64,000 nucleotides of DNA, taken from NCBI GenBank assembly GCA_026003215.1, contig BPGV01000001.1:337570-401569 (forward strand), given 5' to 3'. Origin of the DNA: Bacteroidia bacterium (GTDB lineage Bacteria; Bacteroidota; Bacteroidia; SpSt-205). The notes beneath the pieces were generated by a model, which was given only the letters and a program-made list of their open reading frames with translations, was not told the DNA's origin and did not search any database. Positions 1 through 25,008 of this stretch are shown one piece after another. How positions within the stretch are numbered: the stretch's first letter is position 1; every line of letters begins with the position of its first letter. Position numbers and translations under genes: made by a program.

Positions 1-104
1 CGGTAGAGCGGCTAAGGACTGCCTCTGTAGAAGCGCTGGCAGAAGTGCTTGGCCAGCGCCGAGCAGAGAAAATTCATGCTCTCTTGCAAAATGGCACAGC
101 CTAA
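1..104 (+). CDS. uvrC: UvrC C-terminal end (partial)
   Basis: The window opens inside a plus-strand reading frame with full codons from base 3, closing at a TAA ending at 104. The 33 visible residues include TASVEALAEVLGQRRAEKI, which resembles the last helix-hairpin-helix segment of the excinuclease subunit UvrC, where an A-S-x-x-E-L-A-x-V-x-G pattern precedes the C-terminus. UvrC makes the dual incisions in nucleotide excision repair. Only the tail is visible, so other helix-hairpin-helix proteins remain possible. The following gene starts inside this one. Confidence 0.6.
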   Translation, partial: VERLRTASVEALAEVLGQRRAEKIHALLQNGTA

Positions 105-17174: not shown

Positions 17175-17203
17175 CAAATATACGACAATGCCTACACTTA
17201 CAA
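17175..17203 (-). promoter_or_regulatory. Promoter of tRNA-Phe
   Basis: On the minus strand: TTG (17201-17203), 18 nt, TATATTTG (17175-17182), the same spacing as the tRNA-Asn promoter. The -33 element lies in the end of ftsK. The -7 box ends 9 nt before the tRNA. Confidence 0.72.
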
Positions 17204-19657
17204 GAGGGCTTGTAGCGCTTGCTCATCCTCTACGAGGACATCTCGGGGTTTGCTGCCCCGGGCCGGTCCTACTATACCTGCCCGCTCCAGCTGGTCCATG
17301 AGTCGCCCTGCTCGATTGAACCCAATCCCCAACTTCCGTTGCAGGAGGGAGGTAGAACCATACCGACTGCGCACCACCAAAAGCGCCGCCTCGTAGAACA
17401 AAGGATCGCGCTCTGTAAGAGCCTCGGCTTCTTCGGAGGTTTCTTTTTCTGGCGTAGGAGGCTCTGGTAGAACATACGGCTCAACAGGCGGCTGACCCGC
17501 AATAAATCGTACGACCCGCTCTATCTCCGAAGCGCTTACGTAGCCACTCTGTAGCCGTAAAACCTCCGTCCCCATCGCAAAGAGCATATCCCCGCGTCCA
17601 ATCAGCCGTTCTGCGCCATCCATATCCAAAATCACCCGCGAGTCTACGCGCGATACCACCCGGAAAGAGATACGCACAGGGAAGTTGGCCTTGATAAGGC
17701 CGGTAATCACATTTACCGAGGGACGTTGCGTAGCCACAATCAGGTGTATCCCCACAGCGCGCGCCAGTTGTGCCAGCCGGCAAATAGGCCCTTCTACTTC
17801 CTTCCCGGCCGTCATCATCAGGTCGGCCAGCTCATCTATAATCAATACGATATAAGGAAGGGGCTTATGGCCCTCCGGCACATCACCCCTCACACAGCGA
17901 CGATTATATTCGGCAATGTTGCGCACCTGGACCTCTTTCAGCAGCTCATACCGCATCTCCATCTCTAAAACTAAGCTTTGCAGCGCCGGCAAAGCATGAC
18001 GCACATCTGTGATTATACGCTCCGGCAAGCCCGGCACTTCCGCTAAGTAGTGCTTCTCCAGATCTTGGTACAAGCTCATCTCAACCTTCTTAGGGTCAAT
18101 CAGTACGAAGCGCACTTCTTGCGGGGAGAGGCGATATACAAGCGAAAGAAGCATACAGTTGAGCGCCACAGACTTACCCTGTCCAGTAGCCCCTGCTATG
18201 AGGAGGTGGGGCATCTGTGCAAGGTCCCGAATAAAAACTTCATTTGTAATAGTTTTTCCGAGGGCTAAGGGCAAAATCGCCGCAGTATGCTGAAACTCCT
18301 GTGAAGATATCAAGGAGCCTAAGGGCACCACTTGGGGACGGGCATGGGGCACCTCTATCCCAATCGTACCTTTGCCCGGCATCGGCGCAATAATCCGTAT
18401 CCCCAACGCCGCTAAACTCAGGGCAATATCATCCTCTAAGCTTTTGATTTTGCTGATGCGTACCCCTGGGGCCGGTATCAGTTCAAAGAGCGTCACGGTC
18501 GGGCCCACAGTCGCACTTATGCGCGTGATCTGAATCCCATAATGCTGCAAGGTCTGCACAATCTGATTTTTATGCGCTTCAAGTTCCTGAGCGGTTATGG
18601 GAGGAGCCCCCCCTTCTGTTTTCTGGACCAGAAGCTCTATGGGTGGAAGGGCCTGTTGGGCCGATAGCACCGCGGGTTTTGCTTCTCCTTCCGAGGACAC
18701 ATTTTCAGCCGAGACAGACACCTCTGGCTCCGAAAAACCCTCTATATGTATGGACAAACTATCCGAGACGCTGGGAATAATACTTTCTCCGACAGACTCT
18801 TTTTCATGTTCAAGTAGACCGCTAATAGCCATGACTATTTCCCTTACATCTCCGGCATTATGCGTTTTTTTATCTGATTCTCTTGGGATTTCTTTGGAAA
18901 GAAATTTAGAAACTTCATCAGAAGAAAGAGAGGATATATGTTTATCTTCTGCGGGTTCGGGTGGAAGTTCCTCGCTTGCCGGAGAGGGTTGCGGAGGAGG
19001 GCTTTCCGGGTAAGGAGAACGTACGACTTCGTACCAAGAGGGATGGCTTTCGGTGAGACCCTCCTGGGTGGCGTCTTCAATAGCGGAAGGACTTTCCTCT
19101 TGGGTGGGCGTTACAGCGTTATACCTCTGAGAGGCGAGAAGGAACTTCCTGAAAAGCCCAGAGAAATACCCTACTGCCCCGCCGAAAATCAGTATCCACA
19201 CCAAGATTAGGCCTACAGGACCAATATAAAGGCTCAAAAACGCAGCTAATCCTGCTCCTACACTTCCACACCATAAAAGGTCCTCTACCCAGCCTATCTG
19301 CACTAACCAGCCGCCTAAAGTAGAAAAAGCATATAAGACTAAAAGCCCCCACCCTAATACCTTTAGCCGAATTTTTTGTCCACGAGACCAACTCAGGGCT
19401 GCATATAGAAACATAAATGGAAATAATATACCTATCCAGCCAAAACCGTGATATATTAGCTGATGTGCAATTTTCGCTCCAATCCAACCTGTAGGATTAT
19501 TAAGAATAGTCGCTTGAGGTGCGCCTTCTAATGCTGGAAGATCCTCAGTATAATTAACAAAATAGGCCAAGACCGCTATAAGAACATACAATCCCATTAT
19601 CCCTACCGCTGCACTTAAAATAACCCGGCGGGTAGGGAGCGGAGCCTGTTCTGCCAT
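17198..19657 (-). CDS. ftsK: DNA translocase FtsK
   Basis: An 819-residue septal DNA pump. Four N-terminal membrane segments (to about residue 170) are followed by an acidic, Pro/Ser-rich linker (about 185-330). The motor domain has Walker A GATGQGKSVALNC, Walker B YIVLIIDELADLMM and VATQRPSVNVITGLIKAN. The gamma domain (LLQRKLGIGFNRAGRLMDQL) reads KOPS-like DNA signals and contacts XerD. It clears chromosome ends at division. ATG 19657 follows a -7 box by 4 nt, and the promoter overlaps the end of polX. Confidence 0.95.
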   Translation of the reverse strand: MAEQAPLPTRRVILSAAVGIMGLYVLIAVLAYFVNYTEDLPALEGAPQATILNNPTGWIGAKIAHQLIYHGFGWIGILFPFMFLYAALSWSRGQKIRLKVLGWGLLVLYAFSTLGGWLVQIGWVEDLLWCGSVGAGLAAFLSLYIGPVGLILVWILIFGGAVGYFSGLFRKFLLASQRYNAVTPTQEESPSAIEDATQEGLTESHPSWYEVVRSPYPESPPPQPSPASEELPPEPAEDKHISSLSSDEVSKFLSKEIPRESDKKTHNAGDVREIVMAISGLLEHEKESVGESIIPSVSDSLSIHIEGFSEPEVSVSAENVSSEGEAKPAVLSAQQALPPIELLVQKTEGGAPPITAQELEAHKNQIVQTLQHYGIQITRISATVGPTVTLFELIPAPGVRISKIKSLEDDIALSLAALGIRIIAPMPGKGTIGIEVPHARPQVVPLGSLISSQEFQHTAAILPLALGKTITNEVFIRDLAQMPHLLIAGATGQGKSVALNCMLLSLVYRLSPQEVRFVLIDPKKVEMSLYQDLEKHYLAEVPGLPERIITDVRHALPALQSLVLEMEMRYELLKEVQVRNIAEYNRRCVRGDVPEGHKPLPYIVLIIDELADLMMTAGKEVEGPICRLAQLARAVGIHLIVATQRPSVNVITGLIKANFPVRISFRVVSRVDSRVILDMDGAERLIGRGDMLFAMGTEVLRLQSGYVSASEIERVVRFIAGQPPVEPYVLPEPPTPEKETSEEAEALTERDPLFYEAALLVVRSRYGSTSLLQRKLGIGFNRAGRLMDQLERAGIVGPARGSKPRDVLVEDEQALQALL

Positions 19658-19661
19658 GAAG

Positions 19662-19669
19662 CGAAGTTA
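19662..19669 (-). promoter_or_regulatory. -7 box of ftsK
   Basis: TAACTTCG, one mismatch to TAnnTTTG, ending exactly 4 nt before ATG 19657. It overlaps the polX stop codon. Confidence 0.5.
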
Positions 19670-21298
19670 GGAGTTTAGCGGGAAGGGGGGAAAAGCGGCG
19701 GCATTCAGGAGCAAATCAGGGGGCAGTAATCCTTTTTGTAAAACAGCTAAGCCATTTTTCCAATAGGATAGTTCCTGTACGGAGTGAGCATCGGTCGTGA
19801 GGATTACACGCACGCCGAGTTCTGCGGCTCGGCGCACCCACCGCCAATCAATCTCCATGCGATAGGGATTAGCGTTAAACTCAATCGCTATGCCCCGCTC
19901 AGCACACACTTTGAGGATACGCTCTTCTTCAATAGGGTAGCCGGGGCGGGCGCGCAGTAGCCGGCCAGTCCAGTGCCCCAATACGCGCACGTAGGGGTTT
20001 CCCAACGCAGTAAGCAATCGCTGCGTGGCCTCTTCTCGGCTCATCCGAAGCTTTTCATGCACAGAAGCCACAATAAAATCGAGTCTCCTCCAAATAGCTT
20101 CTTCATAATCTACCCGCCCATCAGGTAAAATATCCGCTTCAATCCCCCTAAGCAATAAGAACGTCCCCTTATAAGAGGCATTCAGGCGAGCTATTTCTTC
20201 GCCCTGCTGGGCTAAGCGTTCGGGGGAAAGTCCACCGGCGTAGGCTGCTCGCTCACTATGATCAGCAATCCCGAGCCACTTCCACCCCATCTGCTGGGCT
20301 GTGGTAGCCATGGCTTCCAGGCTATCCCGCCCATCGGAGTACGTGGTATGCACATGCACAGACCCACGCACATGGGCTTCCGTGAGCGGCTCGGGGAGCT
20401 TCCCCGCCAAAGCTAAATCCACAATATCTGGCCAATCGCGCCACGCCGGCAAAATATAGGGTAAGCCTGCCCGAAAAAAGAGTGCCTCTTCTGTAGCAGG
20501 TATTTCCTTTACCTGGCTGAAAAGCCGCTGCAGTTTTTGCCGGTTTTCTTCTGAGAATCCTTCTAAGGCAAGGGTTTCTACCCAATGCTTGTCTGGGATA
20601 AGGTGTAGTTCTATGGGAAAGTCAGAGTGCTTGAGGCGGGTGGATTCTATGAGCTGCCAGCCGGCTTCCCTTGCATGGTCTTTTTGAGAAGCGGGAAGGG
20701 CGCCTTCAATGTGACTAAGTAAAGGCCATGCCCGACGCAACGCTCCCAAAGGCACCACCATAATGCCTCTCTCCCGCAGGGCATGAACGGCTTCTATCCA
20801 TAGGGCTTGCGCTTCCTGCAAAAGCCACTGATGAGCGGTGCTGCGGTAAAACTGAATACTTTCCTCTACTTTCTTGAGAAGGGCCGGCCCCCAGCCAGCA
20901 AGGTTTTGCAGTTTGCCACGAGCTATGGCCTGGTCCAAAGCATCTATGGAGGTAATGCGGGCTTCTTTCCACAGCTGGTGTATGCGCTTAGGGCCCAGCC
21001 CTGGCAGCCGCCGCAGCTCCAGAAGGCTATCGGGGACTTCAGCCCGAAGTTCTTCTAAGAGGGGTACGGTGCTATTTTCATAAAGCCCCACTGCGGTATT
21101 GAGTAACCCTTCCCCAATCCCCGGCTGCCCGTGTAGCGCCCGGATAAGCGCCTCCGCAGAAGCCCACGCCGTTTCCGGCAACCGACTAAGGGTATCCCAT
21201 AGCTTCTTATAGGCTTGTATGCGAAAGGATTGCGGTTCTCGTAACTCTAATCGCACGATAAGCTCCTCTAAAGCTTCCAAAACGGCGGCCGAACGCAT
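19667..21298 (-). CDS. PolX-family protein, degenerate polymerase, intact PHP
   Basis: A 543-residue PolX: helix-hairpin-helix repeats (LPGLGPKRIHQLW; LAGWGPALLKKVEE), a Pol beta-like region and a C-terminal PHP exonuclease. The PHP metal motifs are present: SVHVHTTYSDG, GIEADIL, ASVHEK, LGHWTGRLL, TTDAHS. The palm motif, normally G-S-x-R-R...G-D-I-D, reads GALRRAWPLLSHIEGAL, so both aspartates are lost, and the third Asp strand reads IELHLI. I infer 3'-5' exonuclease activity without polymerisation. ATG 21298 is chosen, 7 nt after the SDR stop; an upstream start at 21343 would overlap that gene. Confidence 0.85.
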   Translation of the reverse strand: MRSAAVLEALEELIVRLELREPQSFRIQAYKKLWDTLSRLPETAWASAEALIRALHGQPGIGEGLLNTAVGLYENSTVPLLEELRAEVPDSLLELRRLPGLGPKRIHQLWKEARITSIDALDQAIARGKLQNLAGWGPALLKKVEESIQFYRSTAHQWLLQEAQALWIEAVHALRERGIMVVPLGALRRAWPLLSHIEGALPASQKDHAREAGWQLIESTRLKHSDFPIELHLIPDKHWVETLALEGFSEENRQKLQRLFSQVKEIPATEEALFFRAGLPYILPAWRDWPDIVDLALAGKLPEPLTEAHVRGSVHVHTTYSDGRDSLEAMATTAQQMGWKWLGIADHSERAAYAGGLSPERLAQQGEEIARLNASYKGTFLLLRGIEADILPDGRVDYEEAIWRRLDFIVASVHEKLRMSREEATQRLLTALGNPYVRVLGHWTGRLLRARPGYPIEEERILKVCAERGIAIEFNANPYRMEIDWRWVRRAAELGVRVILTTDAHSVQELSYWKNGLAVLQKGLLPPDLLLNAAAFPPFPLNS

Positions 21299-21305
21299 AT
21301 ATTGG

Positions 21306-22154
21306 TCAAGTGCTCCCGCGAGTGGCTTCTTTGAGGGCGGCAAAAGCTGCTTTGAGGGTTTCCCTATCGGCTACCTGCGCCAGGTAGTTAAACATGGCTC
21401 CTTGAAGCCGCTCCGCTCCATCAATAGGGATTACGGCGCCGGTGAGATAGGGCGCAAGGTCAGAAAGCAAGAAAGCCGCTAAGGCGCCCAACTCCTCGGG
21501 ACGACCATAGCGCTTGGTCGGCAGACGGTTTTTGTACATCTCTTCAAAGTTTGCATTCGGCATAAGGCGTGACCAGGCGCCTTCAGTAGGAAAAGGCCCC
21601 GGCGCGATAGCATTTACTCGGATATGGTAGGGGGCCCATTCATATGCGAGGGAGAGGGTAAGCGCCTGTACCCCTGCCTTAGCCGCTGCGGAAGGAAGCA
21701 CAAACGCACAGCCCGTATCCGTATAAGTGGTGACGATATTCAGGATGTGCCCCGGCCGACGATGTTCTATCCAATACGCGCCTGCCCACCGGCTCACATG
21801 AAAGGTGCCCGTAAGCACAATATCCACCACCGCCCGAAAGGCCCGAGGCGATAGGGTCTCTGAGGCAGCTAAGAAGTTTCCGGCCGCATTATTGACCACA
21901 GCATCTATTTTACCTAAATCATTTACGACCCTTTCCAGGAAGGCAGAGACACTTTCCCACTCTCGCACATCACAGGGGTAAGCATGTACCGCAGGACCGA
22001 GTTCCTGAGCTGTAGCTTCTATGATGGCCTGGCGACGCCCACATATAGCCACTTGCGCACCACAGGCCGCGAAAGTCTTGGCCATAGCTTTGCCTAAACC
22101 GGTACCGCCCCCAGTGACGACGATAACTTTACCTGTCAAATCTACTTGCAGCAT
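21306..22154 (-). CDS. 2,4-dienoyl-CoA reductase-like SDR
   Basis: A 282-residue SDR with cofactor turn GGGTGLGKAM, VNNAAGNFLA and the segment ending PSAAAKAGVQAL. The Ser/Lys arrangement P-S-A-x-A-K-A-G is that of NADPH-dependent 2,4-dienoyl-CoA reductases (DECR type) rather than Y-x-x-x-K dehydrogenases. Such enzymes reduce dienoyl-CoA intermediates when unsaturated fatty acids are degraded. The gap to the LysM gene is 5 nt, within the seven-gene operon. The exact substrate is not certain. Confidence 0.83.
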   Translation of the reverse strand: MLQVDLTGKVIVVTGGGTGLGKAMAKTFAACGAQVAICGRRQAIIEATAQELGPAVHAYPCDVREWESVSAFLERVVNDLGKIDAVVNNAAGNFLAASETLSPRAFRAVVDIVLTGTFHVSRWAGAYWIEHRRPGHILNIVTTYTDTGCAFVLPSAAAKAGVQALTLSLAYEWAPYHIRVNAIAPGPFPTEGAWSRLMPNANFEEMYKNRLPTKRYGRPEELGALAAFLLSDLAPYLTGAVIPIDGAERLQGAMFNYLAQVADRETLKAAFAALKEATRGST

Positions 22155-22159
22155 AGTTT

Positions 22160-22996
22160 TTAGAAGTTATATTCCGGATTATCGCGCGAAAAATCTTTAT
22201 CTGTGAGGGCTGGATCCACTTCCACCTTATAATACTCGTAACGCTCATAGATCCCATTTTCATCCTCCACCTCCACCACTAAGGGAATATGTCGCTCACT
22301 ATCTACAGTGAGCCGTATAACCTTTCCGTAATCTGAAGGTACTTTAAGCACTTGTCCCGGCTTGAGAGAAACATTTGGGCTTTTGAAGCCATTCAGCTCC
22401 ATGATTTTATACCAACCTACTTTGAGTTTATCGCCGATTCGGAAGAGATTATCTCCCGCCTGTACCGTATAGGTGGTAAGGGTATACTTTGGGGGAGTGA
22501 GGGTGAGCTTATGGCAGCGACGACCATCCCACACCAGGCTACCCTCATACCGCACCAACTGGGGTATTTGCCCTTTGTACCGCTCCCTCGCCGCCAGAAG
22601 AAGGGTGCGTATCTGGTCATACCCCACAGCAAAAATGGTCTGATGCTGATTCTCTAACACCATGTCTCCATGGGGGTCTAAGGTAACGGCTAAATAAGGA
22701 AAAGTATTAGGCTTTACTAAGAGGCGATTACTATTTTTTTCGGCGGGATAGAGGACCTCTACGCCTTTGCGCGGGCTATGTTGATACCCATACACCGCAA
22801 AAGGTCTGCGCCTGAGCTTGAAACGCATGTGTTCTAAAAGGAGCTTACCTTGGACTCGTTCATATTTTTTCAGCTCGTAGCGGAGCGTCTTTATCTCTCC
22901 CGTACGCTCTAACATGGTGTTGAGCAACGCTACGGGGTCCGGATTTTGCGCGAGAAGGCCGACCGCACCTAAAAGGCCCAAGTACTTACGCAGCAT
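22160..22996 (-). CDS. Exported DUF1571/LysM protein
   Basis: A 278-residue exported protein with a short signal peptide (YLGLLGAVGLLAQ). Residues 25-170 resemble DUF1571, a lipoprotein-carrier-like beta region (LRYELKKYERVQGKLL). A LysM domain follows at about 175-225 (YTVQAGDNLFRIGDKLKV, then LKPGQVLKVP), which binds peptidoglycan. It probably works at the periplasmic face of the wall. It overlaps the end of the ABC ATPase by 11 nt. Confidence 0.75.
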   Translation of the reverse strand: MLRKYLGLLGAVGLLAQNPDPVALLNTMLERTGEIKTLRYELKKYERVQGKLLLEHMRFKLRRRPFAVYGYQHSPRKGVEVLYPAEKNSNRLLVKPNTFPYLAVTLDPHGDMVLENQHQTIFAVGYDQIRTLLLAARERYKGQIPQLVRYEGSLVWDGRRCHKLTLTPPKYTLTTYTVQAGDNLFRIGDKLKVGWYKIMELNGFKSPNVSLKPGQVLKVPSDYGKVIRLTVDSERHIPLVVEVEDENGIYERYEYYKVEVDPALTDKDFSRDNPEYNF

Positions 22997-23603
22997 ACGC
23001 CGCTAAAGATACGACCTGCGAAAAAAGCGCAGCCTCTGCAGGGTCATTTGTCGCACAGAGAAGTATCCGCTCTGGATAAGCTTCTTGGGCCTTAAGAGCT
23101 TCCCAGACAATAGATTTATATCTATGGTCTAAAAAAGCGGTCGGTTCATCTAAAAGTACGAGGCCTTTGTGCATGGATAAAGCCAACCCCACCATAAGCC
23201 GATGACGCATACCTGAAGAGAGCGTATAGAGCGGGGCTTTGCGAGGCAAGTCTTCTACAAGCGTGGGGACGGGCTGTATCAGGGCGCCTTTCCACCTAAG
23301 CACATCGGAAAGCACATCTTCTACCCGTAGATCAGGCGGTGGCTGCACATGAGGGGACTGCCAGAAAAACCCATATACCGATGGAAGAGATAAGCACGGT
23401 GTACCGTGTATGGTATAGCATATTTTCCCCTCGGAGGGCATCTTATATCCTGCCAGAAGGGCTAAAAGAGAGGACTTGCCACTGCCGTTAGGTCCTGTGA
23501 CTGCCCAGGCTTGCCCTGCGCGTATATCCAACGAAATACCCCGAAAGAGCCACTTATTGCTGTACCTCAGTCCGAGATTCTCTACTTGGAGCCTTAGCGG
23601 CAT
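22986..23603 (-). CDS. ABC transporter ATPase subunit
   Basis: A compact 205-residue ATPase with P-loop GPNGSGKSSLLALLAG, Q-loop FFWQSPH, an ABC signature read as LSSGMRHRLMVGLAL and Walker B GLVLLDEPTAFLD. Its small size resembles CcmA-like subunits. No membrane partner is encoded beside it, so the substrate is unknown; the setting in a lipid A operon suggests an envelope role. ATG 23603 lies inside the 3' end of lpxC/fabZ (50-nt overlap). Confidence 0.82.
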   Translation of the reverse strand: MPLRLQVENLGLRYSNKWLFRGISLDIRAGQAWAVTGPNGSGKSSLLALLAGYKMPSEGKICYTIHGTPCLSLPSVYGFFWQSPHVQPPPDLRVEDVLSDVLRWKGALIQPVPTLVEDLPRKAPLYTLSSGMRHRLMVGLALSMHKGLVLLDEPTAFLDHRYKSIVWEALKAQEAYPERILLCATNDPAEAALFSQVVSLAAYAA

Positions 23604-25008
23604 AGGCCGTCTTGAGGGAACTTTTCGGCACGAGGCTGGCGGTAAGCTCGGCTTCACAGACGAGTTTATCTTCCACATACGCTTTGCCGGCCATCTTACA
23701 GATACCCCGCCGCAGCTGAAGCATATCTAACTTGAAAACCAACTGATCCCCCGGCACCACCGGCTTTTTGAAGCGAGCACCGTCTATCGCTAAGAAATAC
23801 ACCCAATAGTCTTGCGGATTTTCTACGATATTCAAAAAGAGTATGCCCCCTACTTGAGCCATGGCTTCCAAGATGAGCACGCCAGGCATAATGGGATTAT
23901 CCTCAAAGTGTCCGACAAAGAAGGGTTCATTTATGGTAACATTTTTTATACCTACGATGCTATCTTCACTAAAATGCGTAATCCTATCCACTAAAAGGAA
24001 AGGATAGCGATGGGGTAAGATTTGCCGGATAGCATGAATATCAAAGACGACCCCTCCCGGCGTAGGGGTTTTTTGGAAGCGTTGGATGATTTGCCGTTTT
24101 TGTATGAGCTTGTGGAGGGTACGAATAAAGGCGATATTCGCGGCATGGCCGGGACGCATAGCCATAATCTGGCCTCGTAAAGGCGCCCCTAAGAGCGCCA
24201 GATCCCCAATCAGGTCCAATAGCTTGTGGCGAGCAGGCTCATTATCAAAACGAAGCGGCGTGTTATTGAGGACGCCCTGTTCTACCACTTGTACATTGGG
24301 ATAGCCAAAGAGCGAACCGATACGTCTCAGTTCTTCAGGGGTATATTGCCTGTCTACAATGACGATAGCGTTATCCAGGGTGCCCCCCCGGATAAGACCC
24401 AACCTATGAAGCTCTTCCAGCTCATACAAAAGGCAAAAAGTACGGGCGGGGGCTATCTCTGTGGGAAAGTCTTCCCACCGCACCAAGGTAGCGGGCTGTA
24501 TCCCTAAAACCTGCGAGTTATAATCTACGATGACCGTAGCCCGAAAACCATCAAAAGGAAAAGCCGCAATATCTACCCCACGCTCTTTATCCTGATAATG
24601 CACCGGCTCCTCTATGTGGTAAAACTGCTGGGGCTCTTTTTGGGCCACAAGGCCTACCCGTTGAATAGCCTCTACAAAAGAAAGGGCACTCCCATCCAAG
24701 ATAGGAACTTCTGGCCCTTCTACTTCTATGCGCGCATTAGAAACGCCCATTCCAGAAAGAGCCGCCAAAAGGTGTTCCACCGTATGAATGCGTGCCTCCT
24801 CCTTCCCTAAAGTAGTAGAACGCATAAGATCCACCACGTACTCTACCCGAGCAGGTATCTCTACGGCGGGCGTGTAGTCGGTGCGTATAAACACATACCC
24901 GTAGTTTTCCGGCGCAGGTCGTACACGCAGACGGACACTCTCTCCTGTATGTAAGCCTATGCCTTCAAAAAAGAAATCTTCTTTAAGGGTGTGTTGTTTT
25001 TGGAACAT
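23554..25008 (-). CDS. lpxC/fabZ: Bifunctional LpxC/FabZ
   Basis: A 484-residue fusion typical of Bacteroidota. Residues 1-310 are LpxC, the zinc deacetylase of UDP-3-O-acyl-GlcNAc and the committed step of lipid A synthesis (HTVEHLLAALSGMGVSNA; FDNEPARHKLLDLIGDL). Residues 325-480 are FabZ, the 3-hydroxyacyl-ACP dehydratase (ILPHRYPFLLVDRI; GHFEDNPIMPGVLILEAMAQ). Joining the two may balance lipid A against phospholipid synthesis. It starts 5 nt after lpxD. No lpxA follows, unlike many relatives. Confidence 0.96.
   Translation of the reverse strand: MFQKQHTLKEDFFFEGIGLHTGESVRLRVRPAPENYGYVFIRTDYTPAVEIPARVEYVVDLMRSTTLGKEEARIHTVEHLLAALSGMGVSNARIEVEGPEVPILDGSALSFVEAIQRVGLVAQKEPQQFYHIEEPVHYQDKERGVDIAAFPFDGFRATVIVDYNSQVLGIQPATLVRWEDFPTEIAPARTFCLLYELEELHRLGLIRGGTLDNAIVIVDRQYTPEELRRIGSLFGYPNVQVVEQGVLNNTPLRFDNEPARHKLLDLIGDLALLGAPLRGQIMAMRPGHAANIAFIRTLHKLIQKRQIIQRFQKTPTPGGVVFDIHAIRQILPHRYPFLLVDRITHFSEDSIVGIKNVTINEPFFVGHFEDNPIMPGVLILEAMAQVGGILFLNIVENPQDYWVYFLAIDGARFKKPVVPGDQLVFKLDMLQLRRGICKMAGKAYVEDKLVCEAELTASLVPKSSLKTAYAAKAPSRESRTEVQQ

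Follow-up and report, generated by a model that had tools for sequence, protein, structure and literature searches.

The noncanonical PolX enzymes, found mainly in Bacteroidetes and Deinococcus, were defined as a class by Prostova et al. in 2022 (PMC9226535). In the sections of that paper drawn on here, the class is recognized by an altered catalytic triad, a deletion in the palm, the loss of residues of the dNTP site (named as GS, the steric gate, and the equivalent of Asn279), and a deletion in the fingers, the PHP domain remaining intact. A palm of fewer than 77 residues was counted as truncated, and the fingers were considered deleted below 35 residues in the colouring of Figure 2 and below 55 residues in the 'double-truncated' count. 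Altered enzymes amount to 27.5% of PolX, with a main cluster in which Bacteroidetes and Deinococcus-Thermus predominate. Two enzymes, one with an A-E-E and the other with an A-R-E triad, were inactive as polymerases and displayed a strong Mn2+-dependent 3'-5' exonuclease. The exonuclease of the A-E-E enzyme was abolished by mutating the PHP domain but withstood mutation of the palm, and the palm structure of this enzyme contained no bound metal. An older claim of short-patch synthesis by the A-E-E enzyme, told in the same paper, was not reproduced by its authors. They linked noncanonical PolX to Ku/LigD end joining (NHEJ), which is encoded by about 49% of the PolX-bearing Bacteroidetes genomes (PMC9226535). 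In the part of a 2026 survey that we used (PMC12926913), the polymerase site was kept in 75% of PolX1 and the PHP site in 95%, in keeping with this trend.

The window analysed here is a stretch of 64,000 nucleotides from the genome of a Bacteroidia bacterium (assembly GCA_026003215.1, contig BPGV01000001.1), and its polX gene encodes a noncanonical PolX, hereafter the query. All four features listed above (triad, palm deletion, lost dNTP residues, and fingers deletion) are found in the query, as is the fifth trait of the class, a complete PHP nonad HHHEHHEDH (9 of 9 ligands).

The polX gene and its neighbourhood

The open reading frame list, the Pfam and NCBIfam profiles, and the alignment place polX at 19667..21298 on the minus strand, where it encodes 543 amino acids from an ATG. 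The frame itself is free of stops over 19667-21343(-) and would yield 558 amino acids if started at the TTG at 21343; the PolX frames of relatives, whose starts were picked by script, begin at or near the column of the ATG at 21298. The span given in the initial annotation is this ATG-started form, and every motif quoted there (GALRRAWPLLSHIEGAL, IELHLI, HVHTTYSDG, GIEADIL, and TTDAHS) was found in the translation. The genome (2.27 Mb, one contig, 99% complete) matched polX once, and no second PolX was found in the 2.27 Mb. The NCBIfam PolX equivalog model NF006375 scored 301.8 bits, under its curated cut-off of 426, while the Pfam families HHH_8 (38.8 bits) and PHP (36.8 bits) were over their cut-offs. 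By sequence, the nearest solved structures are the PolX enzymes of T. thermophilus and D. radiodurans; the sequence search retrieved five named relatives, all MAGs, one of which is labelled Sphingobacterium and the others Bacteroidia.

Four regions follow each other in the protein, all encoded on the minus strand. The N-terminal 8-kDa helix-hairpin-helix (HhH) domain (residues 1-75; 21074..21298) was recognized from HHH_8 and the alignment. It is followed by a thumb-type HhH region (residues 76-155; 20834..21073) that aligns with the T. thermophilus and D. radiodurans enzymes and matches HHH_5 at 20.4 bits, below the cut-off of 27. The degenerate palm and fingers (residues 166-268; 20495..20803) are shortened and poorly conserved, and matched no Pfam family at E values up to 1. 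The predicted PHP nuclease domain (19694..20371) is the region of the Pfam PHP match and lies at the C terminus.

Immediately around polX, four genes are arranged head to tail on the minus strand (17198-22996): a gene for a protein with DUF1571 and LysM domains (22160-22996; Pfam), a short-chain dehydrogenase gene (21306..22154; Pfam adh_short_C2) ending 7 nt upstream of the polX ATG, polX itself, and, 9 nt downstream, a gene for an FtsK/SpoIIIE DNA translocase (17198..19657; Pfam FtsK_SpoIIIE, alpha, gamma, and 4TM). The DUF1571/LysM and dehydrogenase genes are 5 nt apart; the common strand and the gaps of only 5, 7, and 9 nt suggest that all four genes are co-transcribed. The dehydrogenase gene lies upstream of polX in four of 10 relative genomes (G001, G006, G009, and G011), and ftsK follows polX in G001, G004, G006, G008, and G009; neither was present at the polX loci of G002, G003, G005, and G010, within flanks of at least 1.5 kb unless the contig ended. 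Elsewhere in the window (23554-25008, minus strand) LpxC is fused to a FabA-like dehydratase domain (Pfam), and the 3' end of this frame overlaps the next frame, for an ABC ATPase, by 125 nt if the latter starts at its first ATG.

Palm triad, fingers, and lyase lysine

Thirty-eight PolX sequences were aligned: the query, 10 relatives from its genus and family, 19 other Bacteroidia, two noncanonical enzymes from Alphaproteobacteria, and six canonical enzymes. The last two groups were taken from named records of a plasmid collection, of which 8 of 39 matches were used. L003, L004, and L006 were omitted as presumed copies of L007, L013, and L011, whose contigs have equal lengths, and L002 and L005 were dropped because their contigs match those of L008 and L016 in length. 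The other Bacteroidia represent the 19, among the 25 PolX-bearing genomes of the class outside the family, for which loci were obtained (G014, G029, G038, G039, G051, and G059 were left out). The L017 row has a gap at the third triad site, and the PolX frame of L042 (Nonomuraea), a record without an annotated gene, was picked by script. In L039, a plasmid of Mesorhizobium sp. B2-1-1, a noncanonical PolX with an A-A-R triad is encoded between ligD and dinB, an order that accords with the link to LigD reported for Alphaproteobacteria.

The query sequences S-H-I-E and IELH align with the canonical G-D-[LIV]-D and VDLR. Its triad reads H196-E198-E230 (numbering of the 543-residue form) where all six canonical rows read D-D-D: His196 (20711..20713), Glu198 (20705..20707), and Glu230 (20609..20611), all on the minus strand, each take the place of an Asp. 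Aligning the PolX proteins revealed no Asp displaced to other positions, the canonical motifs falling on these same three residues, and displaced acids were rejected as an explanation. The initial annotation, which held the catalytic acids of the polymerase to be lost, is thus right that the three Asp are absent, but two of the sites carry Glu and 'lost' is too strong a word.

The triads of the 11 genus and family sequences are HEE, PEK, QER, PQE, KEQ, SEK, QEK, REH, PRE, RET, and REV. In the 10 relatives, site 1 holds P, Q, P, K, S, Q, R, P, R, and R, and with the query included it is acidic in none of 11; site 2 holds E in eight, and Q and R in one each; site 3 holds K, R, E, Q, K, K, H, E, T, and V, which with the query makes Glu in 3 of 11. 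A triad of three acids occurs in none of the 32 noncanonical rows, the query among them (its His at site 1 breaks the three-acid requirement of canonical PolX), and the triad is altered in all 19 of the other Bacteroidia. Both E198 and E230 sit within predicted strands of the AlphaFold model (197-202 and 229-234). Since the relatives vary at all three sites, the two Glu residues are, on sequence grounds, probably not catalytic; the Glu at site 2 (9 of 11 in the genus and family) may be structural. Frameshift or assembly error was rejected because the frame is open and the 10 relatives each carry an altered triad of their own, and the same observations bear out the earlier statement that the region is in frame. 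Chance was likewise rejected as the source of the altered triad, which is altered in 10 of 10 aligned relatives too.

The palm and fingers are eroded well beyond the triad. From the GSxRR motif to the N column of the fingers, the palm counts 69 residues in the query versus 78-80 in the canonical enzymes, and the fingers 23 versus 37-49 (both measured with our own landmarks, and not with the script of PMC9226535). The GS of GSxRR has become GA, both Arg being kept, and the fingers motif FTGSKxHN is unrecognizable in the alignment. Constraint across this part is relaxed: mean pairwise identity among the 11 genus and family sequences is 0.45 in the 8-kDa domain, 0.58 in the thumb, 0.34 in the palm and fingers, and 0.71 in the linker and PHP domain, and invariant positions number 8 of 103 in the palm and fingers versus 119 of 267 in the linker and PHP domain. 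A further residue concerns the lyase. Lys72 of Pol beta is the dRP-lyase nucleophile (as described in the part of PMC5537341 used here); at this position, as matched by our own alignment, the query has lost the Lys and carries Thr68 (21095..21097, minus strand). The lyase-type Lys is missing from all 11 genus and family sequences; it is kept by all six canonical enzymes and, among the other Bacteroidia, by 17 of 19. By our own reading of a printed alignment, D. radiodurans PolX appears to have Glu there, so the loss is not unique to this genus and family, and its claim to novelty is weakened.

PHP domain, structure model, and phylogeny

The PHP nonad of the query consists of H315, H317, H347, E387, H414, H442, E473, D503, and H505. 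None of the 38 sequences in the alignment, the 19 other Bacteroidia among them, departs from these nine ligands, and the complete nonad agrees with the initial description of an intact PHP nuclease. The enzyme of B. subtilis was compared through published descriptions alone. Its DNA-binding residues R469, R474, N498, R503, and K545 (PMC6616362) all have equivalents in the query according to the alignment, in which the placement of R474 and N498 is our own. The equivalent of its Phe440 is Leu. In B. subtilis PolX, whose PHP domain is an AP endonuclease and a 3'-phosphodiesterase, the F440A mutation lowered the efficiency of the AP endonuclease 480-fold and that of the exonuclease 32-fold; a Phe-to-Leu change at this position does not appear in the portion of PMC6616362 drawn on here.

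An AlphaFold model of the query, built from an input of six sequences, has a mean pLDDT of 83.1 and a pTM of 0.65, with low pLDDT in the PHP part at residues 318-320 and 444-452. It matches T. thermophilus PolX 3au6 (Z 35.0, rmsd 5.3, 522 residues), D. radiodurans PolX 2w9m (Z 31.3, rmsd 3.4, 375 residues), and, through the PHP domain, YcdX 1m65 (Z 24.5, 216 residues). In the tree of the 38 rows, a branch at 100/100 separates the six canonical sequences from the 32 noncanonical sequences, the query included. The family (11 rows) forms one side of another 100/100 branch, and its stem is long, at 1.26 to the root as drawn; the tree does not order the noncanonical groups, and 19 of the 38 rows are of unusual composition. 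Going by this tree, which has no Deinococcus row, the query likely belongs to the published main noncanonical cluster.

Repair genes, proposed function, and known systems

Repair genes were surveyed by profile searches in a sample of 60 genomes, 12 of which (G000-G011) represent the genus and family; 8 of these 12 are at least 90% complete. PolX was found in 11 of the 12, the exception being G007 (81% complete). Ku and the LigD polymerase domain (LigD-pol) were each found in 0 of the 12 by these searches, which matched each in 5 of the 60 genomes overall and both in the B. subtilis control; an NHEJ partner for the query was rejected on this account. Over the whole sample, Ku occurs in 3 of 36 PolX-bearing and 2 of 24 PolX-free genomes, and the published association with Ku was not seen. 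Nfo was found in none of the 12 genus and family genomes, and Xth scored over its cut-off in none of the 12 compared to 42 of the 48 other genomes; matches to Xth below the cut-off occur in G000 (25.9 bits versus 99.05), G002, and G011.

Five models (PF03372, TIGR01083, PF03167, PF02811, and PF01261) were searched in nine of the 12 genomes (G000-G008) and in four others. EEP-fold proteins and the UDG family were present in all nine genus genomes, Nth (TIGR01083) was matched in all nine and over the cut-off in eight, and AP_endonuc_2 (PF01261) was matched in 0 of 9. G000 encodes two EEP-fold proteins, both with hydrophobic N-terminal segments; one is the 25.9-bit match to Xth and the other does not match it. 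Judging from these N-termini and the weak or missing match, we did not count them as AP endonucleases, a judgement that covers G000. The PHP matches of G000 are two, PolX and one in a frame of 1167 amino acids, and G007 shows neither. Outside the family, the class genome G020 (3.7 Mb, 99% complete) has no PolX match, no Nfo, and no Xth over the cut-off.

Abasic sites are produced by UDG and other glycosylases, and Nth leaves 3' blocks. With UDG and Nth both present, this lineage should continue to form both kinds of lesion, and because Ku, LigD-pol, Nfo, and Xth over the cut-off were not found, the PHP domain of PolX would be the best candidate for 3'-end cleaning, perhaps cutting abasic sites as well. 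The query is very probably a polymerase-dead family X DNA polymerase whose PHP domain would serve as a Mn2+-type 3'-end nuclease, as judged from its residues and from its studied homologues. The two HhH regions may bind gapped, nicked, or broken DNA, and the shortened palm and fingers would act as a scaffold unable to hold two catalytic metals or to bind dNTP. A putative Mn2+-type nuclease centre, the C-terminal PHP domain would trim DNA at its 3' termini, taking off nucleotides or blocked ends; published homologues make 3'-phosphodiesterase, 3'-phosphatase, or AP-endonuclease activities possible too. From the gene content, the enzyme may act in base-excision or single-strand-break repair, for example in cleaning 3' ends after Nth, while gap filling would fall to another polymerase and a role in Ku/LigD end joining is not expected. 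Sequence anatomy, ligand conservation, the relaxed palm and fingers, and the side of the tree were observed directly; for the lack of polymerase activity and the 3'-5' exonuclease of the query itself we infer by analogy. An exonuclease or 3'-end repair nuclease, as first proposed for this gene, is the best-supported reading and would match the biochemistry of two other noncanonical PolX enzymes (PMC9226535).

Could H-E-E be a working, altered polymerase centre, with Glu198 and Glu230 binding metals and short patches being made? Two of the three sites do carry Glu, and polymerase activity was once ascribed to the A-E-E PolX of D. radiodurans (as PMC9226535 relates), but this is very unlikely: within the genus and family Glu occurs at site 3 in 3 of 11 and an acid at site 1 in none, the GS and FTGSKxHN motifs for dNTP are gone and the fingers shortened, and the A-E-E enzyme was found without polymerase activity and without a palm metal (PMC9226535). 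The heavy erosion of the palm and fingers, along with the loss of the lyase-type Lys, could also be taken as decay of the whole gene to a relic under no selected function. This is scarcely credible for a gene that 10 of the 11 genus genomes carry, in a gene order common to several relatives, and that keeps its nine ligands, its DNA-binding residues, and the 119 of 267 invariant linker and PHP positions across 11 divergent sequences.

The role published for noncanonical PolX, an accessory nuclease of Ku/LigD end joining, can draw on the genome-level association with NHEJ (about 49% of PolX-bearing Bacteroidetes; PMC9226535), yet for the query it is extremely improbable given Ku and LigD-pol in 0 of 12 genus and family genomes and Ku in 3 of 36 genomes with PolX versus 2 of 24 without. 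A 3'-end nuclease thus stays the preferred explanation, and a sharper form of it would make the PHP domain the lineage's sole hydrolytic AP endonuclease and 3'-block remover, replacing the missing Xth and Nfo. We regard this as possible, with low confidence. It would fit the counts for Nfo (0 of 12), Xth over the cut-off (0 of 12 versus 42 of 48 elsewhere), and PF01261 (0 of 9), the character of the EEP-fold pair in G000 (hydrophobic N-termini, weak or no Xth match), the presence of just two PHP matches in G000, the near-constant presence of PolX (11 of 12, the missing G007 being 81% complete and lacking both PHP matches), and the AP-endonuclease and 3'-phosphodiesterase activities of the B. 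subtilis PHP domain (PMC6616362). Against it, PolX outside the family occurs in 1 of the 3 genomes that lack both enzymes and in 24 of the 45 that have one or both (Fisher p 0.60), so that a general replacement of Xth by PolX across the class is unsupported. G020 indicates that PolX, Nfo, and Xth can all be absent or that some of them escape the models; all nine genus genomes searched encode EEP-fold proteins, of which those of G000 were looked at; the aromatic Phe440 of the AP site is Leu in the query; and one lineage amounts to one event.

Stated in full, the idea is that in an apparently free-living lineage devoid of Xth, Nfo, and Ku/LigD, a PolX that has given up both its polymerase centre and its predicted lyase centre may supply all of the cell's hydrolytic AP-endonuclease activity and 3'-end cleaning, which we consider doubtful. 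If true, it would be a PHP-based solution to the AP-incision and 3'-cleaning step, used alone; no report of PolX as the sole AP endonuclease was found among the matches listed from open-licence PMC texts. The lineage would offer a natural test case for whether a PHP domain suffices by itself for the repair of abasic sites and 3' ends.

Among known systems, the A-E-E PolX of D. radiodurans (2w9m) resembles the query in having Glu at sites 2 and 3, a short palm and fingers, lost dNTP motifs, and a complete nonad; at site 1 it has Ala where the query has His. The published noncanonical enzymes are tied to Ku/LigD, whereas no Ku or LigD-pol was found in the query genome; the published cellular role does not carry over for this reason, and the lineage uncouples the PHP nuclease from end joining. 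The twist of the present case is confined to these repair genes missing around PolX. Canonical PolX (T. thermophilus 3au2/3auo and the six aligned sequences) has the domain order, the fold, and the PHP motifs in common with the query, but possesses D-D-D, GS, the lyase-type Lys (6 of 6), and the FTGSK fingers, all absent here. YcdX and the stand-alone PHP phosphatases (1m65) have the PHP fold in common with it and lack the HhH and Pol-beta-like part. The 19 other Bacteroidia enzymes, 32-36% identical to the query, are like it in their altered triads and complete nonads, and differ in the lyase-type Lys, kept in 17 of 19 and lost in the query genus. PolX of this kind is common in Bacteroidetes, and the query is a fresh example of a class already described, not new in kind, which adds one lineage to the polymerase-dead PolX enzymes defined in 2022.
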